The notes below the pieces were generated by a model that saw only the letters and a program-made list of their open reading frames with translations, was not told the DNA's origin and did no database searches. Shown one piece after another: positions 652 through 19,394 of a DNA stretch of 64,000 bases. The DNA lies in NCBI RefSeq assembly GCF_019703855.1, contig NZ_AP024086.1, positions 868,001 to 932,000 of the forward strand, in the 5' to 3' direction. Positions within the stretch are counted from its first letter, which is position 1. Every line of letters begins with the position of its first letter. The position numbers were made by a program, and so were the translations under genes. Source of the stretch: Desulfomarina profundi (lineage in GTDB: Bacteria; Desulfobacterota; Desulfobulbia; Desulfobulbales; Desulfocapsaceae).

Positions 652-3600
652 ATGCTCAGCCAGGCTTTAAGGGGGAATGTGTCTGCAGTGAATAGGAGCG
701 TTACAGCATCACTTGGTATCTGTCTGGGGGCTTCGACGATTTCTATCGTCGAGATGGCTGAACAGGACGAAAAGAGAAAGATTGTCAGCAGAACCAGAAA
801 GCCTCATCTCGGTGATGTGCGTGGCACATTGCGGGAAATACTGGCCGGTGTCAGTTCCCTGGAAAAAAAACGAATCTGTGTCACCGGAAGGCAGTTAAGA
901 AATTCAGTTCGGTGCAGTTCCATTTCCGAACCCGAGGCTGTTGAGCTGGCTGTCCGCCATATTCTACCTTCTGGCCATCCTTTCAGGGTGATCATCAGTG
1001 GCGGGGGAGAGACCTTCATGGTCTACCATCTCGACGATTTCGGCTGCATTCAGAACATCAAAACGGGCAATAAATGCGCGTCCGGCACGGGAGAATTTTT
1101 TCAGCAGCAGTTGCGCAGAATGGATATCAGTATGGAGAGTGTTTCATCCATGGATATTCCGGAAAACCCGTTCAGGGTGTCGGGCCGCTGCTCCGTTTTC
1201 TGCAAAAGTGACTGCACCCATGCCCTGAACAAGGGTATTCCGAAAGAATCCGTTGTGGCCGGTCTGACATTAATGATGGCTGACAAGCTGGAAGAACTCT
1301 TTAAGGAGTTACCGAGTCGCCATGTGTGCCTGGTCGGCGGATGCAGCGAAAATAAGGGGCTGGTCCACTACCTGAAAAGTCGTGTTGATGAACTGTTCAT
1401 TCCAGATGAGGCGTCATTTTTTGAGGCTATGGGGGCAGCCTGCTGGGCCCTGGAACATGAAACCCGGCCGTTTTCGGGAATTGAAAAACTTTTCACTGAC
1501 AATCTTTCCCGTTTTTCCTGTCATAAGCCACTGAAAGAATACAGCCATCTTGTTCATTTCAAAGCCAGGCCCCATGGCAGGGCACGGGCCGGTGACAAAA
1601 CGATTCTCGGCCTTGACGTGGGATCGACAACGACCAAGGGTGTGATTCTCCGCTGTTCAGACAGGAAGATTCTCGCATCTTCCTACCAGCGGACAAACGG
1701 TGACCCCATCTGTGCTTCAAGAAATGTTTACAAGGCCCTGGCGGAACAACTGGAGGCTGCGGTCGTTATAGACGCCCTGGGAATTACCGGGTCAGGAAGA
1801 CAGATTGCCGGGTTGCATGGTTCCGCTACGGCCGTTATCAACGAGATCACCGCCCACGCGACTGCTGCGGCATTTTTTGATCCGGAAGTGGATACCATCC
1901 TGGAAATCGGGGGACAGGATGCCAAATATACCTATCTGACAAATGGTGTTCCAAACGATTATGCCATGAATGAGGCCTGCAGTGCCGGAACCGGTTCTTT
2001 TCTGGAAGAGTCGGCAAAGGAGAGCCTGGGGCTTGATGTTAAAGAGATTGGTGATGCGGCCTGTCGTGCGGAAAATCCGCCAGATTTTAATGACCAGTGC
2101 GCTGCTTTTATCGGTTCAGATATTAAAAACGCGGTCCAGCAGAATATCAATATGGAGGATATAGTGGCTGGACTGGTTTACTCGGTCTGCATGAACTATA
2201 TAAATCGTGTGAAGGGAAATCGACCCGTGGGCAGGAAGGTTTTTGTCCAGGGTGGTGTCTGTTATAACCGTGCTGTTCCCGTTGCCATGGCGGCCCTGAC
2301 CGGCAGGGAAATTATTGTGCCCCCTGACCCCGGTCTGATGGGGGCCTTTGGCGTTGCCCTTGAGGTTGAGAAGCGGATAGAGCAGGGATTACTCGAAAAG
2401 GGCAGTTTTGATCTTGAGCACCTGGCAGATCTTCCCGTTCGTTACGGGAAAAGCTTTATCTGTGGTGGCGGCAGGGAGAAGTGTGACCGGAAGTGCGAGA
2501 TCGCCATGATCGAAGTGGGTACGCGGAAACTACCTTTCGGAGGGATCTGTAACCGGTATGATAATCTGGCAATCGGTAAAAAGGGGGATGATTCTGTTTT
2601 TGACCTGGTGGCCCGGCGCCAGGAACTGGTATTCGGCGGAGAAAATGAAGAGAATGGCAATCGATCAAAGGTGCGGATGAACAGATCCTTCCTGGTGAAT
2701 ACCTATTTCCCCTTTTACAGGACTTATTTTGATCACCTGGGGTTTGACCTGGTTCTGCCCGATCGGGTTGATCCGGAAGGGGTGAGCAGAAAAAAATCAT
2801 CCTTTTGTTATCCTGTAGAAATTGCGCACGGTTTTGTAAATGAAATGCTGAAGATCAAGGCAGATTACACCTTCCTGCCCCATCTCAAGGGTATCCCGTC
2901 CGGGGAAGGTGATGTTTCATGCACCTGTGTTTTTGTTCAAGGTGAACCATACTATCTGAAATCCACCTTCGGGGAGCTGGATTCGTCCCGTACCCTCAGT
3001 CCGGTGATTGATTTTTCGCATAGTTTCAGCCGTAACCGGAAAAATTTTGCAAAAATTGCCCGGCAGCTGGGATGTTCCGGCAGGGAGGGCAGGCAGGCAT
3101 TTGAGGCGGCCTACAAGGCCCAGCAGCAGAACCGGATAGCAATGAAGGTTATGGGAGAGCAGTTTCTGGCGGAACTGGAGAAGAATCCGGAAGATATCGG
3201 TATTGTCCTTTTCGGCAGGCCCTATAACAGTTTTGTGCCGGAGGCAAATAAGGGAATTACTTTGAAATTTGCCTCGAGGAATGTGCGGATTATACCCTTT
3301 GATATGCTCCCCTATGGTGAAGAAGGGCTTGGAGAAGAAAGCAACATGTACTGGGCCATGGGAAACATGCTGATGAAATGTGCCCGCTTTGTGCGGTCCC
3401 ATCCCCAGCTTTTCGGCACTTATATCACTAACTTTTCCTGCGGACCGGACTCTTTTGTCGTCACCTATTTCCGCGATATCATGGCTCAGAAACCGAGCCT
3501 TACCCTGGAGCTGGACAGTCACACCGCGGATGCGGGAATAGAGACCAGAATTGAAGCCTTTCTGGATATTGTTGCCTCGTATCGTGTGCTGCAGCAGAAA

Positions 3601-4956
3601 AAGAAGAAAAAAAGGAAAAAAGAGGGTTCTGTTCCGGCCATAATGGAATTTCACGGGGATATGGCCTGTATGCACCGGTCGAACGGGGAAGTGGTCCCCC
3701 TGACCGACAGGAGGGTGCGCGTGGTTCTGCCCGCCATGAGCAGGTATGGCTCTCCCCTTTTCGCTGCCACTTTTTCACGGGCCGGTATTCGGGCCATGGC
3801 CCTGGATCCGGCGGATGAAGAGGTGTTGAAGCTCGGACGGGGAAACTCAAGCTGTAAGGAGTGTCTGCCCCTGCAGACGACCGTCGGTTCTATTCTCAAT
3901 TATCTTGAGAACGACCGGCCGGAAGGGGAACTGACTGTCTATTTTATGCCCAGTGCGCCGGGGCCATGTCGTTTTGGCCAGTATAATGTGTATACAAAAC
4001 GGGTTATCAGTCAACATAAATTTGAAGATGTTGCTGTTTTTTCACCCACTTCAAAAAACTGCTACGGTGGCATGGGGACCGACTTTTCCATTGCAGCCTG
4101 GCGGAGTGTGGTCATTGGTGATCTTTTCGATGAGATGTGGGCAACCCTGTTGACCGCAGCCGTAAACAGGGAGGAGGCACTGGAAGTCCTTGACAGAAAT
4201 TTTTCGGCGATAAAAAATTGTATTGGTGGTGAGTGGCGGGAATTGGCCGGGCAGCTGAAACGGACTGCCGGGGAACTTTCAGAAATCAAACTTGTTCAGC
4301 CGTACGAAGCCATCCCCAAAATTTCCCTGGTGGGAGAAATCTATGTCCGCCACGATCCCATATCTCTTCAACAACTCATAGAAAAAATGGCGGCCCGTGG
4401 GTTTATTGTCCGGACCGCTCAGAACAGTGAGTGGGTGAAGTACCTCGACTGGCTGATTAAAAAGGGGATTATGGGCGAACGTTCTCTTTCCTTCTGGTTT
4501 GGCCATCTTACCAAGGAAAAGGCTGATGCCAGAATTAGAAAACTGCTGGCTCCCAGTGGGCTTTTTCACGTGGGTGATATGCGGGTAAGCCATGTGGTCA
4601 AGGCAGGGGAGAAGTATATATCACCCCAGTTACGGGGAGAGGTTATTCTGACTGTCGGTTCCGCGTTTCACGATATGCTCAACCCTGCCTGTGGTATCAT
4701 ATCCATAGGGCCTTTCGGCTGTATGCCGGTTCGTGTCGCGGAGGCCATACTGAATGAAAAATTCAACGTGGGTGAGAAGAAAACACAATTGAACGGCCAT
4801 GCATTTCTGCAACTGCCTGCCGATGATGAACGTAAATTCCCCTTCCTTGCCATTGAAACCGATGGCAATCCCTTTCCCCAGATTATTGAGGCCCGCCTGG
4901 AGGCCTTTTGCCTGCAGGCAGAGCGGGTGCACAAGGAGATGCTGTCGGGTCAATGA
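652..4956 (+). CDS. Giant acyl-CoA dehydratase activase-type protein (BadF/BadG/BcrA/BcrD family plus HgdB-like part)
   Basis: This 1,434-residue protein has two ASKHA-type ATPase activase regions followed by a large C-terminal part resembling 2-hydroxyacyl-CoA dehydratase subunits and DUF2229. The first activase (about residues 20-275) is divergent: its phosphate loop reads GICLGAST and the usual EIGGQD motif is replaced by SGGGETF. The second (about 315-590) is canonical, with LGLDVGSTTTK, EIGGQDAKY and CSAGTGSF. Cys-rich stretches follow near 600-625. Family members use ATP to drive low-potential electron transfer from a [4Fe-4S] cluster to a dehydratase or reductase partner; the substrate here is unknown. 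The start is uncertain, since in-frame GTG codons at 679 and 688 are also possible. It converges on the paralogue at 5085-9305. Confidence 0.85.
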   Translation: MLSQALRGNVSAVNRSVTASLGICLGASTISIVEMAEQDEKRKIVSRTRKPHLGDVRGTLREILAGVSSLEKKRICVTGRQLRNSVRCSSISEPEAVELAVRHILPSGHPFRVIISGGGETFMVYHLDDFGCIQNIKTGNKCASGTGEFFQQQLRRMDISMESVSSMDIPENPFRVSGRCSVFCKSDCTHALNKGIPKESVVAGLTLMMADKLEELFKELPSRHVCLVGGCSENKGLVHYLKSRVDELFIPDEASFFEAMGAACWALEHETRPFSGIEKLFTDNLSRFSCHKPLKEYSHLVHFKARPHGRARAGDKTILGLDVGSTTTKGVILRCSDRKILASSYQRTNGDPICASRNVYKALAEQLEAAVVIDALGITGSGRQIAGLHGSATAVINEITAHATAAAFFDPEVDTILEIGGQDAKYTYLTNGVPNDYAMNEACSAGTGSFLEESAKESLGLDVKEIGDAACRAENPPDFNDQCAAFIGSDIKNAVQQNINMEDIVAGLVYSVCMNYINRVKGNRPVGRKVFVQGGVCYNRAVPVAMAALTGREIIVPPDPGLMGAFGVALEVEKRIEQGLLEKGSFDLEHLADLPVRYGKSFICGGGREKCDRKCEIAMIEVGTRKLPFGGICNRYDNLAIGKKGDDSVFDLVARRQELVFGGENEENGNRSKVRMNRSFLVNTYFPFYRTYFDHLGFDLVLPDRVDPEGVSRKKSSFCYPVEIAHGFVNEMLKIKADYTFLPHLKGIPSGEGDVSCTCVFVQGEPYYLKSTFGELDSSRTLSPVIDFSHSFSRNRKNFAKIARQLGCSGREGRQAFEAAYKAQQQNRIAMKVMGEQFLAELEKNPEDIGIVLFGRPYNSFVPEANKGITLKFASRNVRIIPFDMLPYGEEGLGEESNMYWAMGNMLMKCARFVRSHPQLFGTYITNFSCGPDSFVVTYFRDIMAQKPSLTLELDSHTADAGIETRIEAFLDIVASYRVLQQKKKKKRKKEGSVPAIMEFHGDMACMHRSNGEVVPLTDRRVRVVLPAMSRYGSPLFAATFSRAGIRAMALDPADEEVLKLGRGNSSCKECLPLQTTVGSILNYLENDRPEGELTVYFMPSAPGPCRFGQYNVYTKRVISQHKFEDVAVFSPTSKNCYGGMGTDFSIAAWRSVVIGDLFDEMWATLLTAAVNREEALEVLDRNFSAIKNCIGGEWRELAGQLKRTAGELSEIKLVQPYEAIPKISLVGEIYVRHDPISLQQLIEKMAARGFIVRTAQNSEWVKYLDWLIKKGIMGERSLSFWFGHLTKEKADARIRKLLAPSGLFHVGDMRVSHVVKAGEKYISPQLRGEVILTVGSAFHDMLNPACGIISIGPFGCMPVRVAEAILNEKFNVGEKKTQLNGHAFLQLPADDERKFPFLAIETDGNPFPQIIEARLEAFCLQAERVHKEMLSGQ

Positions 4957-5084: not shown

Positions 5085-8000
5085 TCAGGTTTCTTTTGCA
5101 CTTTCTCCCTTTCTGCGGGCTCTCAGTAATTCAACAAAGGCTTCCAGCCTGGTCGTAATATGGGTATCTCCTATGGAATCATAGGAAATTGACGCTATGG
5201 GAATGTTGTTGTGGTTGGCACGTATCTTCGGAAAAAGAGCATCGGAGGTGAGGCCGACCATGCAGTTATGGCACATTACACTGAGAATACCGTCTGCACC
5301 CATTTTGATGAAGTCCAGAGTCTTACCGAGGTTCTGGGCAAGGTAACCATCGGACTGGTTGTTGCAGTAGAGGGAGGTCTCACGGAACCAGTCGAGTCCC
5401 GTGCCGTCAAAACTGATTTCCGGGTTGTCGGGAAAGAGCCTGCGGATACGGGCCGCCTCCCTGAGCTGAACGGCCGACTGGACAGTTCGTTTGAGGGCTG
5501 TGCCAAATCTTCTGCTGTAGAAATCCTGGATGGGATCCGTCCAGGCATCATAGAGCTGACCGTCCAGCATGAAAGGCGGTGCGAGTACCTGGCAACCGAG
5601 CTCTTCCAGTCTGTCATACAGTCCCTGGTTGGCCAATGGGTTGACGCGGGTATAGATATCGCCGACGATACCGACTTTAAATCGTTTCTTGCTGGTGCTC
5701 AGATCCACCGGTACGGCTTTCATGATGGAAATACCTTTTTTGATATTTTCGTAAACTGAACCTTCCCGTACCCCTGTCCTAATCCAGTGCAGTGCCTGTT
5801 CCTTGGCCTTCGCAAGATCATCTTTTTCCCGTGCATAAGGGTGAAGGGCCACGCTCCAGCGCCAGAAGTAATCACAGGCAACAATTCCCCGCCACAACTC
5901 CATCAGGTCGGACAGAGACATGACTCCGGGCAGCTCAGACCCATACGGGTTCCACAGGAGCAGCTCATGGGCACCAAGGTCCGTGAGAACACGGGAAAAA
6001 GCGTGAGCATAGTGGGCAAGCAGGCAGGGACCTTTGGCCGAGGTGATAAAGAATCCTTTTCTGTCCTGGGGTAGAGAGTCGTCCAGGGCCCATTTCACCA
6101 GGTCCCCAAGGATCATGGCATAGGGGCTGCATTCTCCTCCATCGCAATACTGTTCTCCAAGGATACGGGTTTCTTCAGTGGCCGGCTCCATCATGATCAC
6201 GGACATTTCCGCCCGCTCCAGGGCTCCCGCAAAGGCATGGACATGATCTGCAAAATAAGGCATGGCGATGGTTCGGCCCTTGAGACGTTCAGGACAGCGG
6301 AGGGGAATATTTTGTTTTTTTATCCGGCGATCGGTTTTCCGGGAACTGGTTGAGAAAATTGCATCAGCGAAAGCTTCCAGACGGGTTTCAAGTCCCGCCT
6401 CTCCACTGTGTCCATCCAGCTCTATCTGCAGGGAAAGACGGTCCCCAAGGACCTGGCGCAGGCTTTTGGCAATGAAGGCGTCCGGTCCGCAGCCGTAATA
6501 GGAGAGAAAGAGGGGGTAGGCATCGGTAACAGACTTGATGGCTGCCGCTGCCCGGATATGTTCCGTACCTGTTCGCCACTGCATATGACTGAGTTCAGGG
6601 GGGACAGTGCTGTTTGCCAGAATAGTATCATAAGGTACCGGGGTCAATCCCAGCCGTTCAAGTCTGCGGCTGATCTGAATATTGAGGACCGGGTCATACA
6701 GGGTGTAGGATCGGCCGAAGAGAACAACAACCGGTTTTTCCGGTGTTGTGTTCTTAAGAGTTTCCAGGCCGAGTTGTGCAGACTGCTCTTTGATGGCCTG
6801 CAGACTGGTTTTCCCTTTTCGGAAAGCTGAACGGATTTGGCTTCTGGAGAAATTACCCAGTGGTTTTAATGCCTTGTGAAGGGATTGAACTGCAAGTTTT
6901 TCCCGTTCCGGATTCATGGGAATGGAGGGATGAAGCAGGGGAAGCCGGTGTTTATTCACCTTTTTTTCAAAAGTTGCCCTGATGACTGAACCGAGCTGCA
7001 GGGAATAGATGCAGTTAATCAGCCGTTTGGCCACAGGATCCTCAAGGTTGGGATCCTGTTCCATTTCCCCGAAGACCGGAATAAAAAGTGCTCTTGCTCC
7101 TTTTTGCAGGATCATATCAACATGGGAGAGGGCAATTTTCACAGGCAAACACTGTTCCGCCCGACTCAGGGTGACGCCATGCTGAACAGAAGATGGAGTG
7201 CTCGGGGGAGAAAGGGCGATTTTCAGTCCCAGTTCGTCAAAAAATGTCTTGAGAAAAGGGAACATGTCCCATGTCTGGTGGGCCCGGGGAATTCCAATGG
7301 TTTGCGAACAGAGAGGTGTGTTTTTTTCGTCAAGTCCCCAGAGCTGAATTCGTTTGTCCAGCAGGTTACGGGGTCGGCAAATTTCTGTTGTGCTGTCGGA
7401 CGGTTCGTTATCCTTCCCACTCCAACGACCGCAACCGTCCCCTGTATAAAATTTCAGATCGTCAAATTCCAGTTGCCTGACAGAGCAGCTCCCCCCACAC
7501 CCTTTGCAGGTGAACAGACGGCTTTTCTTGAGATTTTGAGGAATGGCAAGGTTGAAGAGATCATGTTCTTTTTCGGGAAGAGTCGAACGACCGGCAACAA
7601 GGGCCGCTCCAATGGCTCCGCTGAACGGTCCCCATGGTGAAGCTGTGACTTTTTTCCCCGTGAGACGTTCAAGTTCTTGTGTGATTACGTGGGAACGGGA
7701 TACACCACCTGCAAAAACGATATGGCTGCCTGTTTTCCTGTGACCTACAACCTTTTCAATATAATTGCGGGCCACAGCATGGAGGAGACCCCTGCTTAAT
7801 TCTTCTATCGACACACCCTGCTGCATTCTGGCAACGAGGTCGGAATCGATGAAGACAGTACATCGATCCTGAAGGTCGGCGGCACGATCTGTCATGGAAG
7901 CCATATGATCCAGCTCCTTCACATCCAGTCCCAGCCTTTTTGATTCTTCGAGAAGGAGCGACCCGGTACCGGCTGAACAGGCAGTGTTCAGGGCAAATTC

Positions 8001-9305
8001 CTTGATCTGATTTCCTTCGAAACGGACAAACTTGGCATCCTGACCTCCAATTTCAAATAGAGTGTCAACCTCCGGATTCAGCATGCGCATGGCCGTTGTA
8101 TGGGCCGTTATCTCGTTCACCGAGATATCAGCGTGCAGCAATCTGGCTGCCAGTTTTCGACCGGAACCTGTGACGCCGACAGTGCTGACTTTTCTGTCTG
8201 CAAATGCCGGACTTTTCCGGAGTTCGGCCAGGGCGTGAGCCAGGGCTTTCAGGGGTTGTCCCCTGGTAAAAGCGTAATATTCATCAAGAATGCTTTCATT
8301 GGAAACAATTGCCCATTTAATGCTGACACTGCCCAGGTCAAAACCTAAATCGACCGTTTGACCCGTCCGGGTGGAAGAAGGTCGGGAAGGAGACAGTATG
8401 ACATTTGGGCCGGTAGTGAAGGAGCCGGGACTACAGGATGGTGTTTCAGCCGGGGTCAGCCTGGCAAGGAGTTCTCGTATTGTTTTCGGTGAATTTTCTG
8501 TTTCTTCCTTCCTGGCCCGCAAGGCTGCGCCGATGGCTCCCAGTAAACGATGGTCGGGCGGCACAATCAACTGGTCTTTGTGTAAATTCAAGACTGTGAG
8601 CAGGGCCCGGCACATTCCACGATTGGCGGCCACACCACCGGTAAAAAAAAGGGGAGGATGGATTGTCCTGCCATGAATCAGGGTGCCGATGATATTTCGT
8701 ACGGCACTTTCACAGAGACCGAGGGCCAGTTCGTCACTCCTGGTTCCGGACTGCTGGTGGTGGATGATATCTGTTTTTGAAAAGACAACACAGCGGCCGG
8801 CCACATGGGCAGCCTTCTTGGCTTTCTGGGCTAATTCTCCAAGTTCGGCAACTGATATGCCGAGTCGGGATGCCTGGCCGTCAAAAAAAGTACCGGTACC
8901 GGCTGCACACAGGCTGTTCATGGAATGGTCCAGGACCTCCACTATCTGATTTTGCCGTTTCAGGGTTATGAACTTGGAATCCTGACCACCGATTTCAAGC
9001 AGGGAACAGACAGTATTTTCAGGCAGCAGGGGGGCGGTACCCATGGCGTGGGCAGTTATTTCATTCACACTGACTGTCTGGAGAGTTTCGGCAATAAGAG
9101 TTCGTCCTGACCCGGTGATACATACACCTGCCAATGAACAGTCAGGATGTTTTTCGTCAAACTCCAGAAGGGCCTTTTTCAGTGCCCGGTTTGTCTGGCC
9201 ACGGGTGAGTACAACAGTTTTTGCCACAGTTCTGCCCAACTGGTCAATTATTGCCGCGTCCAGGCTGATTGAGCCTGCGTCCACCCCAAGGTACATTTTC
9301 GTCAT
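5085..9305 (-). CDS. Giant acyl-CoA dehydratase activase-type protein, second paralogue
   Basis: This 1,406-residue protein has the same architecture as the gene at 652-4956, on the opposite strand. Activase domain 1 (about 1-265) has LGVDAGSISLDAA, EIGGQDSKF and CAAGTGTFF; domain 2 (about 320-590) has LGFDLGSVSIKW, EIGGQDAKF and CSAGTGSLL. Both look intact, unlike domain 1 of its neighbour. A Cys-rich segment near 605-640 (CKGCGGSC) precedes the DUF2229/HgdB-like region, and a late CHNCMVG motif could bind a cluster. The predicted role is ATP-driven electron activation of an unknown CoA-ester dehydratase or reductase. Its ATG overlaps the stop of an upstream glycosyltransferase remnant by four bases. 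Confidence 0.85.
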   Translation of the reverse strand: MTKMYLGVDAGSISLDAAIIDQLGRTVAKTVVLTRGQTNRALKKALLEFDEKHPDCSLAGVCITGSGRTLIAETLQTVSVNEITAHAMGTAPLLPENTVCSLLEIGGQDSKFITLKRQNQIVEVLDHSMNSLCAAGTGTFFDGQASRLGISVAELGELAQKAKKAAHVAGRCVVFSKTDIIHHQQSGTRSDELALGLCESAVRNIIGTLIHGRTIHPPLFFTGGVAANRGMCRALLTVLNLHKDQLIVPPDHRLLGAIGAALRARKEETENSPKTIRELLARLTPAETPSCSPGSFTTGPNVILSPSRPSSTRTGQTVDLGFDLGSVSIKWAIVSNESILDEYYAFTRGQPLKALAHALAELRKSPAFADRKVSTVGVTGSGRKLAARLLHADISVNEITAHTTAMRMLNPEVDTLFEIGGQDAKFVRFEGNQIKEFALNTACSAGTGSLLLEESKRLGLDVKELDHMASMTDRAADLQDRCTVFIDSDLVARMQQGVSIEELSRGLLHAVARNYIEKVVGHRKTGSHIVFAGGVSRSHVITQELERLTGKKVTASPWGPFSGAIGAALVAGRSTLPEKEHDLFNLAIPQNLKKSRLFTCKGCGGSCSVRQLEFDDLKFYTGDGCGRWSGKDNEPSDSTTEICRPRNLLDKRIQLWGLDEKNTPLCSQTIGIPRAHQTWDMFPFLKTFFDELGLKIALSPPSTPSSVQHGVTLSRAEQCLPVKIALSHVDMILQKGARALFIPVFGEMEQDPNLEDPVAKRLINCIYSLQLGSVIRATFEKKVNKHRLPLLHPSIPMNPEREKLAVQSLHKALKPLGNFSRSQIRSAFRKGKTSLQAIKEQSAQLGLETLKNTTPEKPVVVLFGRSYTLYDPVLNIQISRRLERLGLTPVPYDTILANSTVPPELSHMQWRTGTEHIRAAAAIKSVTDAYPLFLSYYGCGPDAFIAKSLRQVLGDRLSLQIELDGHSGEAGLETRLEAFADAIFSTSSRKTDRRIKKQNIPLRCPERLKGRTIAMPYFADHVHAFAGALERAEMSVIMMEPATEETRILGEQYCDGGECSPYAMILGDLVKWALDDSLPQDRKGFFITSAKGPCLLAHYAHAFSRVLTDLGAHELLLWNPYGSELPGVMSLSDLMELWRGIVACDYFWRWSVALHPYAREKDDLAKAKEQALHWIRTGVREGSVYENIKKGISIMKAVPVDLSTSKKRFKVGIVGDIYTRVNPLANQGLYDRLEELGCQVLAPPFMLDGQLYDAWTDPIQDFYSRRFGTALKRTVQSAVQLREAARIRRLFPDNPEISFDGTGLDWFRETSLYCNNQSDGYLAQNLGKTLDFIKMGADGILSVMCHNCMVGLTSDALFPKIRANHNNIPIASISYDSIGDTHITTRLEAFVELLRARRKGESAKET

Positions 9306-9547
9306 TTTCGATATGTCATTTGCAGTTTTAAAAGTGTTGTCATAATTTCCCCGGCTGTGTTTCTGGAGGCAAACTGCAGAGGGATCTCCGATATGTCTAT
9401 TTCCCGCCGTGTCAGATAAAACAGCATTTCCAGTTTATAACCGAAATCCTTTGAGATGAAACGGTCAAAATCAAGTTGGTGGCAGGCGGGGCCGGTTCGT
9501 TTCGCTCTCAGTCCTATAGTGGGGTTGGTGATTCTGAAATTTGATTT
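9302..9547 (-). pseudogene. Remnant of a family 2 glycosyltransferase (C-terminal fragment)
   Basis: An 81-codon open stretch with no start codon, closed upstream by an in-frame TAA. Its translation includes NPTIGLRA, then DFDRFISKDFGYKLEML and a REIDISEIPLQFASR segment. I recall this pattern from the C-terminal part of dolichyl-phosphate-mannose-type GT2 enzymes (TSGFR, then FQxEML, then EVPIxFxxR). The TGA stop overlaps the ATG of the activase gene (ATGA), as in a translationally coupled operon. The catalytic N-terminal portion is missing, because only about 190 bp separate it from the next gene. The family call is from memory of motifs and is moderate. Confidence 0.5.
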
Positions 9548-9738
9548 TTATATCTTTATAAAAAATTTACTATTGAAACTCTGATAATATGCTATCCTGT
9601 TGTTAATAAAAAAAATCGCAGTGGGGAAGGTTATTGATGGTTGTTTTGGGCCCGGATCGCAACCTGCGCGGGGCAAAAACAGGTACAATACAGGAAGTAG
9701 TTCATTTTTTTTGGAAGATAAAGTGGAGTGGCAGATAA

Positions 9739-11214
9739 ATGCCTTTTGAGCTCAGTGTAATACTCACTTTTCTGGTGTCTTTCTTTTCAGCACTGTTTGT
9801 TTTGCCTAATTTATCAATTATTGCCAAACGGATAGGTCTTGTTGATGTGCCCAATGAGAGGAAGATGCACCATGTACCGCAACCGTTGGTCGGTGGTATC
9901 GGTATAATAATTTCGGCGACATTCAGCTCCCTGGTTTTTGTTCCCCTTGGAGGAATGAGAGGGTATTTTTCCGGGCTTGCCCTGCTGCTTCTAGTTGGAT
10001 TTTTTGATGATTTCCTTGAACTTGGACATCGGAAAAAATTCCTTGCCCAGATTGCAGCAACAAGTCTGCTGATTTATCTCAGTAAGGTTCAACTTCACAC
10101 TTTTGGCGATTTGCTCGGTCTCGGGGAAATTGTGGTTCCAGCTGTTTCCTGGATTATCTGGACCGTTACTGTTTTCTGTGTTGTGGGGGTAACCAATGCA
10201 GTTAATATGATAGACGGACTTGACGGGCTCGCTGGGGGATTTGCCTTTATCGCGTTTATTGCATTTGCCGTGCTGGCCTCCCTGTCGTCAGACAATACCC
10301 TGATGCTGCTGAATCTGGCACTCGCCGGGGCTGTTCTTGGCTTCCTGAAATTCAACTGGGCACCGTCAGAATTATTCATGGGTGATGCGGGTAGCCTCTG
10401 TCTGGGGTTCTCCCTGTCATTCATGGCCATCGCGCTCACCCAGGGTGAAGCTTCATCCATTTCACCGATAATTGTTCTACTTGTGTTGGCCGTTCCGATT
10501 GCTGACACTCTGACGGTTATGTTAAAAAGGATTTTTGATCGTAAAAGCCCCTTCAAGCCTGATAAAACTCATTTTCACCATATTCTGGTAAAACATGGCT
10601 GCAGTGAAAAACAGGCCGTCAAGATACTTCTGGCACTGGTAATCACCCTTTCGGGGATGGGTATTCTTGGGACCATTCTGAAATTACCGGAACCTGTTCT
10701 TTTTGGGATTTTTCTTTTTTATTTCCTCTGTAATTTTCTGGCTGACAGTTTTGCTGAAAGAATTGTTTCTCTGATCAAGGCCTTTCAGAGAAAGGAAAAA
10801 CCGCAGAACTGTCCGGCGATTGTTCATTCTTTTTTGAAAAGATTGAAAGCAAACCGTTTTTTCAGGGGAGCGGACAGGTATGAAGTTGAGATGGCCATAA
10901 CCTGCTCAAGCTATTCTTCAAAATTTGCACTTGAGGGCACTATGCTGAATATTTCCAGAACAGGATTTCTGGCAAATATTGATAAACTTGGGTTTGTCTG
11001 CAGAGAGTGTGTGGTGACAATTTCTTTTCCGGGAACGGCGGAAAAACAGTTGATTGATATCCCCGTGGAGCATTTGTGGATGTCCCGTCGAGGCGCAAAA
11101 CAGTACCATGGTTTTAAATTTTGTGAATTGGAGGAGAATCAGGCGCTTATTTTGTATGAATTTATCGACAAGATGGAAAAAACCGTTCCGAAAAACACCA
11201 GTAAACCGAACTGA
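9739..11214 (+). CDS. WecA/MraY-like undecaprenyl-phosphate sugar-1-phosphate transferase with C-terminal PilZ domain
   Basis: The N-terminal ~345 residues form a polytopic membrane enzyme of the WecA/TagO/MraY superfamily, with the signatures NMIDGLDGLAGG, FMGDAGSL and the HFHH loop. It would load the first sugar phosphate onto undecaprenyl phosphate for polysaccharide synthesis. The last ~120 residues look like a cytosolic PilZ domain: RGADR at 376-380 fits RxxxR and NISRTG at 404-409 fits [D/N]xSxxG, the two c-di-GMP-binding motifs. Usual WecA proteins are about 340-370 residues and lack this extension. The implied role is c-di-GMP control of glycan initiation. It opens the exopolysaccharide gene set that runs to 19394. 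Confidence 0.85.
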   Translation: MPFELSVILTFLVSFFSALFVLPNLSIIAKRIGLVDVPNERKMHHVPQPLVGGIGIIISATFSSLVFVPLGGMRGYFSGLALLLLVGFFDDFLELGHRKKFLAQIAATSLLIYLSKVQLHTFGDLLGLGEIVVPAVSWIIWTVTVFCVVGVTNAVNMIDGLDGLAGGFAFIAFIAFAVLASLSSDNTLMLLNLALAGAVLGFLKFNWAPSELFMGDAGSLCLGFSLSFMAIALTQGEASSISPIIVLLVLAVPIADTLTVMLKRIFDRKSPFKPDKTHFHHILVKHGCSEKQAVKILLALVITLSGMGILGTILKLPEPVLFGIFLFYFLCNFLADSFAERIVSLIKAFQRKEKPQNCPAIVHSFLKRLKANRFFRGADRYEVEMAITCSSYSSKFALEGTMLNISRTGFLANIDKLGFVCRECVVTISFPGTAEKQLIDIPVEHLWMSRRGAKQYHGFKFCELEENQALILYEFIDKMEKTVPKNTSKPN

Positions 11215-11219
11215 TCGTG

Positions 11220-11254
11220 CCTGTTTTCCGGAAAAATGTTTTTCGGAAAACAGG
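11220..11254 (+). terminator. Stem-loop after the WecA-PilZ gene
   Basis: CCTGTTTTCCG at 11220-11230 pairs perfectly with CGGAAAACAGG at 11244-11254 around a 13-base loop. No U-run follows, so it may be a processing or weak termination structure rather than a strong intrinsic terminator. Confidence 0.5.
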
Positions 11255-11428
11255 ACATGAAGATAACAGGAAAGGGTTGACTTTTAAAAGAGTCGTAAAT
11301 ACAGTAAGATGAGTTTTCCTGGGAAATGAGTTAGCTTTTGGCTTACTATTTGCATAAATACTTTATAAAGATTTACCGGAAGCGAAGAGTCGGAAGTGTT
11401 GTTCCGATTTATTTTAAAGGAGGGCCAG

Positions 11429-11884
11429 ATGAAGAGATTTTTGATTCCGATAATTTCAACCGTATTGTTCTGTACCGTGGCATTTGCAGAATGGCAGGTT
11501 GATTTTGAAGATAATTTTTTTAATAAAGGGATTGATCAGGCGGTAATAGATGCATTGAAGGAAGGTGCTGAGCCTGACGCCATAGTAGAAAAGGGATTGG
11601 CCCTTGAAGGGTTGAATCCTCAAAATTTAGTTGTTGCACTTTATTGTGCGGGAGTCAAGGGACAGGATGTGAGAGAGGCGGCTACGAATCATGATATTTC
11701 AGAAATGATTATAACTGCCGGCTACAAGAAAAGTGTTGCCGAGTGTGGAGATGCCGTAGCTGACAGTCAGGCTTATACCCCTGTGACTTCAGGTTTTTCC
11801 GGTGGTAAGTCAGCCGGAGGCGGGGGGGATCTTTCGCCAGTCCATCTACTTTCAATTGATCTTTTCAATCTCTTGAATCCATGA
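11429..11884 (+). CDS. Small secreted protein of unknown function in the exopolysaccharide locus
   Basis: A 151-residue protein starting at the ATG that follows the ribosome site AAAGGAGGG. Residues 1-20 form a signal peptide (hydrophobic core IPIISTVLFCTVAFA, likely cut after AFA). The mature part is acidic and helical with two cysteines, then a Gly/Ser-rich stretch (GFSGGKSAGGGG) and the C-terminal end SIDLFNLLNP. I do not recognise the family. Position between the glycan-initiating enzyme and the outer-membrane barrel suggests an envelope role in polysaccharide export, by inference only. Confidence 0.7.
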   Translation: MKRFLIPIISTVLFCTVAFAEWQVDFEDNFFNKGIDQAVIDALKEGAEPDAIVEKGLALEGLNPQNLVVALYCAGVKGQDVREAATNHDISEMIITAGYKKSVAECGDAVADSQAYTPVTSGFSGGKSAGGGGDLSPVHLLSIDLFNLLNP

Positions 11885-12052
11885 CGGTTTTATGAATTTG
11901 TTTTAAGTCATCTTATTGAAAATACTACTAGTATATTCATACGGTTGATCTAAAAAAAATCACTTGCCGATTAAGAGATATTCATCTGCAATACATCCCA
12001 GCTCTTCTTGAACTCATTGAATGCTCACGGATTCAGGATCCGGAAAAAAGTT

Positions 12053-12087
12053 AATAGATTGATCAGCCTTGCGCCGGTCAATCTATT
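12053..12087. terminator. Stem-loop upstream of the barrel gene
   Basis: AATAGATTGA at 12053-12062 pairs perfectly with TCAATCTATT at 12078-12087 around a 15-base loop. It lies 169 bp after the small secreted protein gene and 75 bp before the barrel gene. It may terminate the former or structure the leader of the latter. Confidence 0.45.
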
Positions 12088-12161
12088 TGTGTATATAACT
12101 ATAAGAAGTTATTGATTTTTAGGAATAGTATCTCTTATCAAGTTATATTCTGGAGGGCAGG

Positions 12162-13547
12162 ATGAATATCAGAATGAAAGTGTTGGCCCTCGCGATTGTC
12201 TTTGCTATCAATTTATGCTGGCAGAATGGCTTCGCAGCAGGTGAAGTTGTTGTATCCCCCATGAATGTATCTGATGTGCCCATGGGGCAGAGCAAAACAG
12301 GGGAAGTCAGTCTTCTTCCTGAAGATGTGGGAGACGTAAGTGATGAAGATCTTTTCGGTATGGAAGGAGGTTATTTTCATCCTTATGTCTCAATTTCTTT
12401 TGATTATACAGACAATCTGTATAATCTCGATGACAGTTTTGAAGATGGTGGTGTTGAAAATCTGTTAACCACCGTATCACCCGGGATATGGTTTGCTCTT
12501 CCCCGGAAAAAAATAATTCCTGTCACCATTAATCCCAATAACAGTTCTCCCGGTGGTCTACAGTTGCAGTTTAAGGATTACGAGGGGACTGACCGTTTCC
12601 AGGCATATGCCCTGGGAGGATTTGATTTCAAGTATTACACGGAAGATTCCGACCTGAATAAAACTGATGGTTTGCTGGAGGGTATGGGGCGGTATAATAT
12701 GCGGGGTGGCCTGTCGTTGCAGCTCGTGGATCGTTATACACATGGCGAGGACAGACTGGAGGCGGGGTCGTCAACCCGGAACCAGGTTCGTCAGTTTGAT
12801 TCAAATTTTCTGATGGCTACCGCGGACTGGGATATCACTGAAAAATTAAGGGTAAAGGCGGATTACCTTAATTTTGCGCTCTGGTATGATGATGAGATTA
12901 ATCAGTTTCTTGATAGAGTTGATAACGGTTTTGATCTCTATGGCTATTTTAACTACAGTCTTCTGACATCTTTCTTTCTTGAGTATAAGTTTATTGATGT
13001 GGCTTATGATCAATCCACTCAGATAGATAACAATTCACATTTTATCTATGGTGGTATCAAATGGGACACGACGGAAAAAGTGGCCATGCTTTTCAAAGTC
13101 GGGTATCAGAATAAGAAATTTGATGACGATTCAATTGGTCAGGAAGATTTTGATGGTATTGCCTTTGATCTTCAGTTCACTTATCGTTATTCTGAAAAGA
13201 CAACCATGTCTCTTGATATGTACAGAACAAATGAGGAGACAGATAACTTTCAGGCCAGTGATAAAACCGTTATCGGTTCGGTTTTCGGATATAAGCAGAA
13301 ATTTACAGACCGTTTAAGCGGCAGTTTTGATTTTACATATGAAGATTCCGATTATTCAAACCTGCACACCGTTACGGCTGAAGACCGCGATGACTGGACC
13401 ATAGATCTGCGACCGGCTGGTCAGTATCTTTTCCGGGACTGGTTGATGTTTGAGCTGGCTTACCAGTATGAACGTAGAGAATCGACTGATGATTTTTTTG
13501 ACTATGATTCCAATTCGGTTATTTTTACGATTAATCTGGCATTATAA
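12162..13547 (+). CDS. Outer-membrane beta-barrel protein of an exopolysaccharide locus
   Basis: A 461-residue protein with a clear signal peptide (MNIRMKVLALAIVFAINLCW, cleavage near FAAG). The mature chain has alternating hydrophobic and polar residues, abundant Tyr, Phe and Asp, many short amphipathic strands (for example FDFKYYTED and LSGSFDFTYEDSDYS), and a C-terminal strand NSVIFTINLAL typical of outer-membrane barrels. It resembles the barrel proteins (BBP2/TIGR03016-type) found beside Wza/Wzc genes. A role as a polysaccharide secretion porin is inferred. A strong ribosome site (TGGAGG) precedes the ATG, and a good terminator follows at 13581. Confidence 0.75.
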   Translation: MNIRMKVLALAIVFAINLCWQNGFAAGEVVVSPMNVSDVPMGQSKTGEVSLLPEDVGDVSDEDLFGMEGGYFHPYVSISFDYTDNLYNLDDSFEDGGVENLLTTVSPGIWFALPRKKIIPVTINPNNSSPGGLQLQFKDYEGTDRFQAYALGGFDFKYYTEDSDLNKTDGLLEGMGRYNMRGGLSLQLVDRYTHGEDRLEAGSSTRNQVRQFDSNFLMATADWDITEKLRVKADYLNFALWYDDEINQFLDRVDNGFDLYGYFNYSLLTSFFLEYKFIDVAYDQSTQIDNNSHFIYGGIKWDTTEKVAMLFKVGYQNKKFDDDSIGQEDFDGIAFDLQFTYRYSEKTTMSLDMYRTNEETDNFQASDKTVIGSVFGYKQKFTDRLSGSFDFTYEDSDYSNLHTVTAEDRDDWTIDLRPAGQYLFRDWLMFELAYQYERRESTDDFFDYDSNSVIFTINLAL

Positions 13548-13633: not shown

Positions 13634-13712
13634 CCTGAATCCTGCAATTGGCAAGTTCAGAGTATGCCCGCTTTTCTCATCAGTTCAGGTGGCGTCAGCT
13701 TCAAACTGTTGA
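13634..13712 (+). repeat. Family A left end joined to a family B left end
   Basis: 13634-13660 matches the left end of family A (CCTGAATCCTGCAATTGGCA). After a TA, 13666-13712 matches the left end of family B (GCCCGCTTTTCTCATCAGTTCAG). Neither right end is present. The piece lies between the barrel terminator and the Wza-like gene, so it may contribute to the leader of that gene. Confidence 0.65.
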
Positions 13713-13785
13713 TAACAAAGTAGATTGGGTAGATTTGTTGAATTACAGGGTTCAGCCGAAAGGTTTGGGGAAAGGAAGGATAATT

Positions 13786-14577
13786 ATGAAACGAGCGATT
13801 ACTTTAATGATTCTGGTTTTCATCTTCTCTTCAGGAATCGCCGGATCAGTTCTGGCTGATGATTATCGTACCGGGCCCGGTGATGTCCTCAAAATCATAG
13901 TATATGACAATGATGATCTGACGGCGAAAGTCCGTATCTCTGATGCGGGAACAATAGTCATGCCCCTTCTTGGCCGGATCGATATCAATAAGTTGACAAT
14001 TGATCAGATTACGGAAAAAATCACCCGTCTTCTTGCCGATGGATATCTTGTCAATCCACAGGTGAATGTCTTTGTAGAGGAATACAGATCCAAAAAAGTT
14101 GTAGTTCTGGGAAATGTAAGGAGGCCCGGGATAACGGAATTGACGGGACCGATTACTTTTCTGGAATTGATTTCCCGTTCGGGCGGCCTTGAAAAGGATG
14201 CCGGGGATACTGCAACCATCCAGCGAAAAGAGGATGGCGGGGAGAAGGTCATTGTCATTGATTTGAGGGCTCTTATAGAAAGGGGAGATCTTTCTCAGAA
14301 TATAGTGATACAGGATGGAGATACGGTTTTTGTTTCAAAGGCCGGTATGTGTTTTATTACCGGTGAAGTCAATTCTCCCGGAACCTATCCATGCGGGGAT
14401 AAGGGTACTGTGCTGAAACTGGTTGCCCTGTCAGGAGGTTTTACCGGTAAGGCTTCAAAATCAGGTATAAATATTGTCCGAATAATAAACAATAAAAAAA
14501 CAGTCATTGAGGATGTGGACTTGAGTACACCTCTTGTGGACAACGACGTGGTTGTTGTTCCGGAAAGCTTTTTTTGA
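13786..14577 (+). CDS. Polysaccharide export lipoprotein-like protein (Wza/poly_export family)
   Basis: 263 residues from the ATG after AAAGGAAGG; an upstream in-frame start at 13648 would run through repeat DNA and is rejected. A signal peptide (about 1-24) ends near SVLADD. There is no lipobox Cys, unlike E. coli Wza. YRTGPGDVLKI opens the poly_export domain, and two SLBB-like segments follow (VLGNVRRPGI and ITGEVNSPGTYP). The protein would form the periplasmic and outer-membrane channel that exports the glycan, working with the Wzc-like kinase 53 bp downstream. Confidence 0.9.
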   Translation: MKRAITLMILVFIFSSGIAGSVLADDYRTGPGDVLKIIVYDNDDLTAKVRISDAGTIVMPLLGRIDINKLTIDQITEKITRLLADGYLVNPQVNVFVEEYRSKKVVVLGNVRRPGITELTGPITFLELISRSGGLEKDAGDTATIQRKEDGGEKVIVIDLRALIERGDLSQNIVIQDGDTVFVSKAGMCFITGEVNSPGTYPCGDKGTVLKLVALSGGFTGKASKSGINIVRIINNKKTVIEDVDLSTPLVDNDVVVVPESFF

Positions 14578-14630: not shown

Positions 14631-16855
14631 ATGGAGAACTCGCCATACTGGGAAATGATAGACGATGGAGATGATGGGGGAATTGATTTCAAGACATATA
14701 TCGGCATCATCAGGAAGAGGTGGGGTCTTATTCTTTCCGTGGTGTGTTTTGTCCTGCTTGTAACAATAGTGGTTACATACACGACTACTCCCATATATAC
14801 ATCTTCATCGCAGGTTTTGATTGAGAGAAATTATGGGAAATCGGCACTTGAATCAAATTATTATCGATACGAACCTGATTTTCTTGATACTCAGTCGGAG
14901 ATTATAAAAAGTGAAAATGTTGCGCTGAAGGTGGTCAGGCATCTTCAGCTTGCAACAAAATATCAGCACTATTTTTTCAATCAGTCCACTGACGAACAAT
15001 CTTTCATCGGCATTGTAAAAAAGAAAATTACCGATCTTGTACAAATGGGTATCTCCCTTGTTTCCGGAAACGGCAGGGAGCAGAATAAGGGAGACCGTTC
15101 CGGTGGAATCATTCCTGTTGAGCCGAAAAGTGATGAGGAAATCATAGCTTCAATTATCAGGTCCGGGCTCAGTGTTACTCCTTTAAAAAATACAAAAATT
15201 GTGACCATCTCCTTTCGTTCGAGGAATCCTGCCATCGCGAAGATCGTGGTCGATGCGGTGGTGAAAGCGTATATGGATGAGATGCTTGATATTAAATTGA
15301 GCACCAGCAGTTATTCACTGAAATGGATGACTGAGAAGGCGGCGGAAGAGCGGGACAAACTGGAACGGTCTGAACGGCAGCTCCAGAAATTCATGCGGGA
15401 GAATGATCTTGTTACCGTTGAGAACCGGTTGACCATCCTCCCCAGAAACTTTCTGAATTCGGCAGCCAGCTTTCGAAAGCGGAGACGGAAAAAAATGAAC
15501 TGCAGGATCTTCTCGAGCAGATTGGATCCGCCGGCAATGACATTGAACAGCTGGAAAAGATTCCCCAGTTTGCCCAGGATACTGTTCTGAAAAATATTCG
15601 TGAGCGAATCTACAAGGCCAATCAGAATATCCAGGAGCTTTCAAAAAAATATGGCAGAAAGCATCCGGTAATGATACGGGCTCGGGATGAATTGAGGATT
15701 CTGAAGCAGGAAAAACGATTTGAAATTGACCGTGTGGTCTCAACGATAAAAAATTCCTATGAACTTGCAGTGTCCAAGGAGAAAAGTTTAAAGAAGCTCC
15801 TGGAAACGACCAAACGTGAAATGTTGAATCTGAATGAGAAATTCATGCAGTATTCCATCATGAAACGTGATGTGGACAGCAATCGTGTTCTCTATGATAC
15901 TCTGCAGACAAGTATAAAGAAACAGGGAGTAACGGAACAGTCCCAGAGTGTAAATATCTGGGTTATAAAAAAAGCAGCTCTTCCGGTGGTTCCGTCTAAA
16001 CCGAATAAGAAATATAATTTAATTGTCGGTCTTATAATTGGAATCTGTGGAGGACTCTGTCTGGCCTTTTTTGTGGATTATCTGGACAATACTATCAACA
16101 GTGTCAGGCAGATTGAAGATAAGTTCGGTCTGACGGTCCTGGGTTCTATTGAAGAGTTGAAAGGCAAAGATAAAAACATAGACACGTATATTCTCTACAA
16201 TCCCCTTTCTCCCATTGCGGAAAGCTATCGTCTGATACGTTCCGCCCTGCTTCTGTCAAAGGCGGATCATCCACCGAGGGTGGTATTGATAACCAGTATG
16301 AATAAATCCGAGGGAAAAACCGCCACTGTAACTAACCTTGCAAGAATGCTCGCAAAAGATAAGAAAAATGTGCTGGTCATTGACTGTGATCTCAGGCGGC
16401 CGAGAATGCATTCTCTTCTCGGAATGCCCAATGACCTTGGGTTGAGTTCATATCTTACTGGAAATACGGATGAATGTCCCCTTCTGCAGATCAAGGATGA
16501 GGGGTATTGCCTGATTCCTGCAGGGCCCGTTCCCCCTGACCCTTCTGAATTGCTTGGTTCACGGAAAATGAAGAAACTCCTTGAGATGATGGCTGAAAAA
16601 TATGATTTTCTGCTCCTTGATTCTCCTCCAGTTGGTGCAGTAACCGACAGCCTTACTCTCAGTCAGTATGTTGATGGCTCTATTCTGGTAGTCAAAGCGG
16701 GCAGTACAACTCTGGAAATGTTTGAGAGTGGCGTAAAGAAGATGCGTGATATCAATTCACACATTCTCGGAGTCGTGCTCAACGGGTTGAAAATGGAAGA
16801 GAAAGATTCGTATCAGTATGGTTATTCCAGCTACTATGCATCCGACGATGACTGA
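14631..16855 (+). CDS. Wzc-like polysaccharide co-polymerase and tyrosine kinase (frameshifted in this sequence)
   Basis: The reading frame changes at the CCCC run 15440-15443; one extra C restores a continuous protein of about 741 residues. The N-terminal part has a Wzz domain with a membrane segment near residues 35-55 and long coiled coil. A second membrane segment (LIVGLIIGICGGLCLAFF) precedes the cytosolic BY-kinase. The kinase has the Walker A-like SEGKTATV, the Walker A' VIDCDLRRP and the Walker B LLLDSPPVGAVTD. The C-terminus is Tyr-rich (SYQYGYSSYY), the usual autophosphorylation cluster. It sets chain length and controls export with the Wza-like protein upstream. Both halves are well conserved, so the break is probably a sequence error. 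Confidence 0.9.
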
Positions 16856-17051: not shown

Positions 17052-19394
17052 ATGAAACGGATATCATCTGCACTCTTTCTCTTTTCACTTGTTTTTGCTC
17101 CGCTGGCTTTTGGAACCGTTGAAGCATGGTCTCTTTCAGTTGTTGAGATCACTACAGCCGCAGCATTTATTCTGTTTTATCTTTCCGCCTGGTTTCATAA
17201 AGATTCGACACTGAAAGTTCCAGGAACCCTGCCGCTTGTGCTGCTGCTGGGGGTTATCGGATTTCAGCTCCTGCCATTGCCGGTATCTGTTGTTCAAGTC
17301 CTTTCTCCGGAAACATATGCAGTGTATTCGCCTCTTTTCCAGATCGAGCATGGACGGAACTGGCTCCCTCTTTCCGTCAATCAGAGAGCTACTCTCCATG
17401 AATTGTTACGATTTGGATCGTACGGTCTGCTGTATGTCTTGACCGTTCAATTGCTCAGTGAGCCAGAACGTCTGCGAAAAACTGCGAGTGTAGTTGTTTT
17501 TCTCGGTTCGGCCATTGCCCTGCTGGCACTGATTCAGCATGTTGGTTCTCCGGACAGGATATACTGGTTGAGGAAGGTCCCGGACAATGCAAGTCCATTT
17601 GGCCCCTGGATAAACCCCAATCAGTTTGCCGGATACATGGAGCTTGTCAGTCCTCTGGCTTTTGGTCTTTTTCTCTTTTATCGACCAAGGGTCCGCGGCA
17701 GTGAATCTTTTCGTGAAAAATTTGTAACCTTTTTTACCATTCCTCGAATTCACTTGTACCTTTTCCTCTGGTTTGGTGCGGCCCTGATGGTTTTTTCTGT
17801 TTTCATCAGCCTGTGTCGGGGCGGTATTCTTTCCATAGTTGCGGGGGGAGTCGTTTTTTTCCTGCTGTACAGGAGAAAATTTCCAGGGCGGAGCAGTTAT
17901 ATTTTCCTGACGATGGTGGTGGCAGTTGTTCTGGCTATTACATGGTTTGGCTGGGATATTATTCTGTCCGAGTTTAACCAGAAATTTGACAGCTCGGGAC
18001 ATATACGTGAAGGGCGTCTTCTTCTCTGGAAGGATACGCTTGCTCTTATCAGAGATTTTCCGATCTTCGGGGCCGGGTTCGGTTCATTCATTCATATTTA
18101 TCCACTGTATAAGACCTTTGTCGGTAACCTTATTTACGATCATGCCCATAATGATTATCTCGAACTGTTGACCGATGGAGGCATTGTCAGCCTGTTGCTG
18201 GCTGCCTGGTTTGTTGTCAGTATTCTTCTGCACGGTTGGAAAATGATCCGCAGAAGACGTGACAGATATGCAGTTTTCCTTGGAATTGGAGCGATCAGCG
18301 GAATACTTTCTCTTCTGGTGCACAGCGTGACCGATTTTAACCTGCATAACGGAGCCGTGGGGTACTATTTCTTTTTTCTTCTCGGTCTGCTTGTTGCGGC
18401 TGTCAATACCAGATTCAGTTATGGCAGTTCTGCCAGCCTTCTGAAAAAACAATCTCCGGGATTGACTGCACCGATTGTTGTTTTCGGTCTTGCCTGGTGT
18501 GTTGCTGTGGTCATTGTTCAGATTGGTTCCTATCGTGCGTGGTCCGGATATGAAAGTATAAAAAATATTTATGTCAATCCGCATCTTGGCAGGAAATTTC
18601 TCTGGAAGATTACGAAGACCATGGACAGAGCTGAACGGCAGGATCCTTTTCATGGATTGTATTCCTACAGGAATGGAACGGCGTTGTGGTACATGGGGGA
18701 GAAAAAAGCGGCACTTGAAAAGTATCTCCTGGCTTTTCGTAAAAATCCCCTTGAAGGGATATTTCTTCAACAACTTGGTCTGTTGCAAAATGATGAGAAG
18801 ATAGCCGAAAAACTGCTTGAGGAGGGGTACAGGCGTACGCTGAATAAGGACATCCTGATTTCAAGTTATGTTGAGTGGCTACTGTGGCGGGGGCAGCGGC
18901 GCAGGGCGGTTGAAGTATTGTCCCGCAGCATGCATGACGCACCTGATCAGGCGGTAGCCTGGAGTGGTCTGCTGAGGGAATATTCCTTCACTCATGAGGA
19001 ACTTGAAAAAATAATACCAGGGAATTCAAAAACCTGGGTGGATTTCGGCCGGCATTTATCAAGTATCGGGCTCGAAAAAGAATCCAATTATTTTTTTAAC
19101 AGGGCTGAAAAACTGCTGATGGAAGAAGACAATCCTGCCATGGAAAGTTATCGCAACCTTATCCAGTTTTTTTATCGACAGGGTTTTGATGCGCGGGCAC
19201 TCAGTGTTCTTCGCCGGGCTGTTGAAAAACTTCCCGATGAGCTTTATTTTCACCTTAAGCTCGGGGAGTATTATCAGAAAGAGAACATTGCCTATCGTGC
19301 AAAGGAAGAATTTGAGCGGGTTCTGTTTCTTGATCCGGGCAATAAAAAAGCTGTAAGGGCCCTGCGACGGCTCGGTTTTGCCGACAGTTACTGA
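17052..19394 (+). CDS. O-antigen ligase/polymerase-like membrane protein with C-terminal TPR repeats
   Basis: 780 residues. About residues 1-490 hold roughly eleven hydrophobic segments and a Wzy/WaaL core, including the NPNQFAGYMELV segment and the periplasmic region ending HNDYLELLTDGG, a signature of the O-antigen ligase family. The C-terminal ~250 residues are soluble and helical with TPR-like units (for example LKLGEYYQKENIAYRAKEEF). It would polymerise or ligate the exported glycan. It ends the plus-strand exopolysaccharide set and converges with the minus-strand peptidase gene 31 bp away. Confidence 0.85.
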   Translation: MKRISSALFLFSLVFAPLAFGTVEAWSLSVVEITTAAAFILFYLSAWFHKDSTLKVPGTLPLVLLLGVIGFQLLPLPVSVVQVLSPETYAVYSPLFQIEHGRNWLPLSVNQRATLHELLRFGSYGLLYVLTVQLLSEPERLRKTASVVVFLGSAIALLALIQHVGSPDRIYWLRKVPDNASPFGPWINPNQFAGYMELVSPLAFGLFLFYRPRVRGSESFREKFVTFFTIPRIHLYLFLWFGAALMVFSVFISLCRGGILSIVAGGVVFFLLYRRKFPGRSSYIFLTMVVAVVLAITWFGWDIILSEFNQKFDSSGHIREGRLLLWKDTLALIRDFPIFGAGFGSFIHIYPLYKTFVGNLIYDHAHNDYLELLTDGGIVSLLLAAWFVVSILLHGWKMIRRRRDRYAVFLGIGAISGILSLLVHSVTDFNLHNGAVGYYFFFLLGLLVAAVNTRFSYGSSASLLKKQSPGLTAPIVVFGLAWCVAVVIVQIGSYRAWSGYESIKNIYVNPHLGRKFLWKITKTMDRAERQDPFHGLYSYRNGTALWYMGEKKAALEKYLLAFRKNPLEGIFLQQLGLLQNDEKIAEKLLEEGYRRTLNKDILISSYVEWLLWRGQRRRAVEVLSRSMHDAPDQAVAWSGLLREYSFTHEELEKIIPGNSKTWVDFGRHLSSIGLEKESNYFFNRAEKLLMEEDNPAMESYRNLIQFFYRQGFDARALSVLRRAVEKLPDELYFHLKLGEYYQKENIAYRAKEEFERVLFLDPGNKKAVRALRRLGFADSY

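Follow-up and report, generated by a model that had tools for sequence, protein, structure and literature searches.

Direct control by c-di-GMP is well established for the synthase-dependent polymers cellulose, alginate and PNAG. The cellulose synthase BcsA is a GT2 enzyme with a cytosolic PilZ domain placed directly after its membrane core, following TM8, and binding of c-di-GMP at the linker and barrel releases an autoinhibited gate (PMC12564702). PilZ domains of this fold that bear RxxxR and [DN]xSxxG motifs are also found in Alg44, which forms a subunit of its own in the alginate machinery, and in YcgR and MotI, whose target is the flagella. As for Wzx/Wzy pathways, their post-translational control has been termed incompletely understood, and the nearest precedent comes from M. 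xanthus, in which a response regulator acts on the initiating phosphoglycosyl transferase (PGT) of an EPS pathway (PMC12802240). In this EpsW-EpsZ case, the initiating enzyme EpsZ belongs to the large monotopic PGTs, and a phosphorylated response regulator supplies the signal in trans.

We analysed 64,000 nucleotides of the genome of Desulfomarina profundi, a bacterium of the sulfate-reducer type (contig NZ_AP024086.1, positions 868,001 to 932,000; hereafter the window), in which one gene is predicted to encode a polytopic PGT with a C-terminal PilZ domain. As in BcsA, a membrane polysaccharide enzyme would thus carry a cytosolic PilZ domain just behind its membrane core; unlike BcsA, which polymerises and exports in one step, this enzyme would be confined to forming the first lipid-linked sugar in a pathway of the Wzy type. 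The catalytic fold and motifs are shared with E. coli WecA, MraY and DPAGT1, and we know of no PilZ domain in any of these named enzymes. With EpsW-EpsZ, the protein has in common an initiating PGT, a Wzx/Wzy EPS pathway and a post-translational activation that is predicted here, the signal being cis-acting c-di-GMP in our case. No description of a WecA-type PGT fused to PilZ was found in the open literature, to which subscription journals mostly do not belong, so that absence there is not proof. Both halves are known families; what is new is the joined architecture and not the kind of system.

We consider it likely that the fusion protein is an EPS initiator under allosteric control by c-di-GMP bound in cis, probably activated, as BcsA is, through release from autoinhibition. 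This would add a c-di-GMP layer of post-translational control that is undescribed for Wzy-type pathways in the literature searched. A PilZ domain covalently attached to the initiator would let the second messenger act where the shared undecaprenyl phosphate becomes committed to a single polymer, and biofilm signalling may in this way reach the very first polymer-making step. Since sensor and enzyme share one chain, the question is testable with a single purified protein.

Catalytic membrane half of the fusion protein

The open reading frame, 491 amino acids from an ATG start, has exactly the limits first given for it (Table 1). Pfam hmmscan placed Glycos_transf_4 (PF00953) at residues 76-233 with an E value of 3.5e-41 and 141.3 bits against a gathering score of 27. 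The catalytic signatures were found at D90-D91, NAVNMIDGLDG (residues 153-163; NxxNxxDGxDG), FMGDAGS (213-219) and HFHH (278-281; the HxHH loop), and in an alignment of 21 homologues having 43-61% identity to the window protein, the key residues of these signatures vary little or not at all. The Pfam score and these motifs together indicate that the protein belongs to the polytopic phosphoglycosyl transferases of the PF00953 superfamily.

The best NCBIfam model was TIGR02380 (WecA), with a score of 217.7 bits that lies under the equivalog cut-off of 326.05. An assignment to WecA sensu stricto (UDP-GlcNAc:undecaprenyl phosphate GlcNAc-1-P transferase) is not supported by this score, which sets the protein apart from E. 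coli WecA. "WecA-type" should therefore be read as a superfamily label and not as the name of a GlcNAc-1-P enzyme, the donor sugar not being assignable from such a score. Identity with MraY was rejected: the MraY models scored lower than TIGR02380 on the fusion protein, which falls below the MraY cut-off, and a separate MraY-like relative of 360 amino acids is encoded at 753 kb in the genome.

An AlphaFold2 model of the full-length protein, built from a 12-sequence alignment (mean pLDDT 84.3), contains 11 membrane-type helices up to residue 337. In a Foldseek search with this model, the core matched MraY (E 6e-11) and DPAGT1, and BcsA and the c-di-GMP-bound PilZ structure 4xrn were also listed. 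Residues 337-380 form a basic tail with 11 lysines or arginines, and the linker and the relative placement of the two domains were modelled at low confidence (pLDDT 51-58). In the WecA/MraY superfamily, the active-site loops face the cytosolic side. Given 11 helices followed by a basic tail, the PilZ domain should according to the model be cytosolic and lie on the side of these loops. At the nucleic acid level, Rfam revealed no riboswitch or other RNA family in 9200-12300, and promoter- or terminator-like sites were no more frequent than expected by chance.

Table 1. Features of the fusion gene and of the export genes downstream (positions in the window; residues are those of the fusion protein).
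Feature	Position	Strand	Basis and remarks
Fusion gene: polytopic phosphoglycosyl transferase with C-terminal PilZ	9739..11214	+	ORF, Pfam, AlphaFold2 (mean pLDDT 84.3)
Membrane-embedded catalytic domain (residues 1-335) with 11 transmembrane helices predicted	9739..10743	+	PF00953, Foldseek, conservation
Basic cytoplasmic linker (predicted), residues 338-375, low-confidence helices	10750..10863	+	AlphaFold2, sequence
PilZ domain (predicted), residues 376-482, six strands and C-terminal helix	10864..11184	+	AlphaFold2, Foldseek, VIA-align
RxxxR motif RGADR, residues 376-380	10864..10878	+	in 20/21 aligned family members
[DN]xSxxG motif NISRTG, residues 404-409	10948..10965	+	in 21/21 aligned family members
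P162, small uncharacterised protein, signal-peptide-like start, next gene downstream	11429..11884	+	conserved neighbour
EpsL-like outer-membrane beta-barrel protein	12162..13547	+	PF10082, TIGR03014 partial, conserved neighbour
Wza/EpsE-like polysaccharide export protein	13648..14577	+	Poly_export, SLBB, EpsE; start probably ATG near 13780
Wzz/chain-length part of Wzc-like protein, ends in shifted frame	14631..15590	+	Wzz match
Second part of this Wzc-like protein, with GNVR and tyrosine autokinase	15671..16855	+	GNVR, TIGR01007 over cut-off
Wzy_C/O-antigen-ligase-like polymerase with TPR tail	17052..19394	+	PF04932

The PilZ extension and its ligand motifs

In the AlphaFold2 model, the extension folds into strands 381-391, 397-405, 409-413, 424-430, 437-451 and 454-461 and a helix at 466-482, that is, the six-stranded barrel and C-terminal helix of a PilZ domain. 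The same barrel appeared when the C-terminus was modelled alone (pLDDT 81.7). The top solved structures matched by this part in Foldseek were MotI, 4xrn, YcgR, BcsA, Alg44 and MapZ, all of them PilZ proteins, and VIA Z scores to PilZ structures reached 13.9 as against 6-7 for unrelated entries. With BcsA, the Z scores were 10.6-13.5. The alignment with the R. sphaeroides BcsA protein opens at model residue 26, corresponding to R376, opposite chain residue 580, at the start of the PilZ domain of BcsA and the site of its RxxxR motif.

RGADR and NISRTG conform to the RxxxR and [DN]xSxxG motifs of PilZ receptors and are spaced by 28 residues, start to start. In the 21 homologues, full conservation within the extension is limited to R376, R380, S406, G409, W447, G458 and F461, and the position of N404 is occupied by N or D in all 21. 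One of these assignments is nominal: L011, from the same genus, reads RQTPLNGEKR, so that it matches the R376 column only via an alignment gap and has lost RxxxR. The mean fraction of the most frequent residue was 0.71 for the catalytic part, 0.47 for the extension and 0.37 for the linker. Since the extension is less conserved overall than the catalytic part, its conservation is concentrated at the ligand and core positions of PilZ. A chance occurrence of the motifs was ruled out by this conservation and by the predicted fold.

The Pfam profile gave a less clear signal. PilZ (PF07238) matched residues 374-475 with 21.1 bits (E 4e-4) in hmmscan and 24.7 bits in the genome scan, for a cut-off of 22.5; the homologues L014, L022, L031 and L032, of the same architecture, scored 31.8-42.3 bits, L010 20.6 and L011 13.8. 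The low hmmscan score and the loss of RxxxR in the congener L011 could mean that in this organism the domain has lost c-di-GMP binding and is a degenerate structural remnant. We hold this to be very improbable, as the window protein and 20 of the 21 homologues retain both motifs intact despite overall identities of 43-61%.

The original prediction had paired a WecA-type enzyme with a PilZ domain bearing intact binding motifs, and had named the lack of a PilZ barrel as one outcome that would speak against it; structure prediction of the C-terminus returned the barrel. Sequence, conservation and model agree on the motifs, and the WecA-type catalytic domain holds at the superfamily level, as attested by PF00953, TIGR02380 as top NCBIfam model, the HxHH loop, the Foldseek matches and the separate MraY-like gene. 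The sequence comparisons and models thus lend support to the enzyme fold, the PilZ fold and the conservation of the motifs, as well as to the EPS gene context described below. We infer that the domain would bind c-di-GMP and that binding would affect catalysis; we likewise infer the sign of regulation and the identity of the sugar.

The downstream export locus and the proposed mechanism

The genes downstream of the fusion define a locus of the Wzx/Wzy type, with Wza, Wzz/BY-kinase and Wzy_C polymerase genes nearby; no Wzx flippase gene was detected among the scanned window ORFs. P162 had no match in Pfam or NCBIfam. The Wzc-like gene (14631-16855) is broken by a frame change near 15440, at a CCTCCCC run, which may reflect either true loss of function or an indel introduced by sequencing; in relatives L149 and L151, the Wzz/tyrosine-kinase gene appears to retain a single frame. 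Upstream, two convergent genes, 652-4956 (+) and 5085-9305 (-), encode CoA-enzyme-activase-like proteins of about 1400 amino acids (BcrAD_BadFG type), the assignment of the second being made from its own sequence only.

We compared this arrangement with that of relatives in a sample of 93 genomes, one per species, from the same bacterial family, the Desulfocapsaceae. The order fusion-P162-EpsL-Wza-Wzz-kinase-Wzy was repeated, within contig limits, in 16 homologous loci, one of which (L166) gave no P162 match. At L163-L165, the fusion is placed elsewhere in the genome, away from the EPS locus, and its neighbours, where scanned, include genes for an NTP_transf_5 protein, a GT2 glycosyltransferase and a UDP-GlcNAc 2-epimerase. 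An EpsL gene was present in 23 of the 24 genomes with a fusion and in 19 of the 69 others (Fisher p 2e-9, calculated with relatedness ignored). Some genomes have an EPS locus of this type but lack the fusion, and in two of them a WbaP-type initiator (Bac_transf and CoA_binding_3) lies directly upstream of P162 (L197:8936-10360 and L199:8406-10007), a monotopic and non-homologous PGT thus standing in the very place of the fusion. This in-place replacement is the best evidence for an initiator role. Because WbaP-type initiators fill its slot in these two relatives, the fusion protein most likely starts the polymer made by the downstream EPS locus, and both gene order and slot bear out the place at chain initiation that had been proposed for it. 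P162 itself is kept beside EPS genes in about 40 of the 93 relatives and, in L177 from Nitrospirota, a P162-like sequence reads in frame after a PGT without PilZ.

The fusion enzyme would use a UDP-sugar as donor and place its sugar-1-phosphate on undecaprenyl phosphate at the cytoplasmic face of the inner membrane, its 11-helix core putting the C-terminus in the cytoplasm beneath the active site. In the ligand-free state, the basic linker with R376 and R380, just past the last membrane helix, could touch either the HFHH loop or the site for undecaprenyl phosphate. Uptake of c-di-GMP by the PilZ domain through R376/R380 and N404-S406-G409 would alter catalysis, most likely by relieving autoinhibition, and high c-di-GMP would then unlock the first committed step and with it the pathway. 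We favour activation because the gate of BcsA, taken as the analogue, is freed when ligand binds at the linker and barrel. The PilZ domain might instead bind c-di-GMP yet repress initiation, or steer undecaprenyl phosphate away from the polymer at high c-di-GMP. PilZ modules work in either direction, the sequence is silent on the sign, and the several initiators of the genome would share undecaprenyl phosphate. Such an effect nevertheless seems improbable, as BcsA and Alg44 require c-di-GMP binding for polymer production (PMC12564702) and the locus resembles a biofilm-type EPS system.

The genome contains about 20 GGDEF and 14 PilZ matches, from which it appears that c-di-GMP is probably made in this organism and has further receptors. 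Three further initiators of the Bac_transf type are encoded in it and could feed the same EPS pathway. Two large proteins of the same genome combine a cyclic-nucleotide-binding domain with PilZ, and one of them adds HEAT repeats (L169:5529-7247 and L171:1253-3604); the gene for the former is separated by about 5 kb from a Bac_transf initiator and has another PilZ gene nearby.

Distribution of the fusion and variation of its C-terminal part

Within the Desulfocapsaceae, the fusion was found in 24 of the 93 species and in nine genera, in four of these genomes (G029, G045, G058 and G040) on short or broken contigs. Named relatives in the family include Desulfocapsa, Desulfoprunum and Desulfobulbaceae MAGs. 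The aligned fusions of the family form one clade (support 100/99); the tree leaves its relation to Nitrospirota fusions and to unfused relatives unsettled, and with it the choice between one origin and repeated origins. In the wider phylum, among the matches listed from 395 genomes, a sample thin in the family of the window, only the window's own match extends across the PilZ region; the remaining strong matches either lack an extension or carry additional hydrophobic segments.

A few full-length fusions occur in Nitrospirota (L043, L044, L045 and L172), where a sample of 198 genomes contained two. One of them, L044, has the motifs RRQER and NISKGG. The other three have K-x-x-x-R and NIGTCG and, to judge from these residues, may not bind c-di-GMP. 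A Desulfobacterales MAG (L048:9932-11461) encodes a PilZ-like tail with the degraded motifs RWEGY and SISTRG. Judging by the motifs, c-di-GMP binding is not retained in every fusion, since L011 has lost RxxxR and three Nitrospirota fusions carry Lys for Arg together with NxGxxG.

That L011, Nitrospirota proteins and L048 keep the domain with poor motifs, and that linkage to the Wzz/kinase and Wzy genes is conserved, would also suit a PilZ domain serving chiefly as a docking or assembly module for the Wzc kinase or glycosyltransferases, with c-di-GMP only tuning complex formation or localisation. We regard this as unlikely, because the ligand-contacting residues are among the best conserved of the domain, which exceeds the needs of pure docking. 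For the family of fused PGTs, we lean towards control in which c-di-GMP bound in cis acts as a gate on the first lipid-linked step in making a Wzy-dependent polysaccharide.

Other additions were seen at the C-terminus of related enzymes. In the wider phylum and in Nitrospirota (L120-L148, L033, L050 and L180-L191), the related PGT is often extended, in the place of PilZ, by some 200 residues that include several hydrophobic segments; in L033, the only one scanned, this addition had no Pfam match. Three other PGTs of the Desulfocapsaceae (L035, L036 and L037) end in a different, soluble domain of about 190 amino acids, with no Pfam match. This domain looks sensory, and possibly other regulators have been fused to the same enzyme class.
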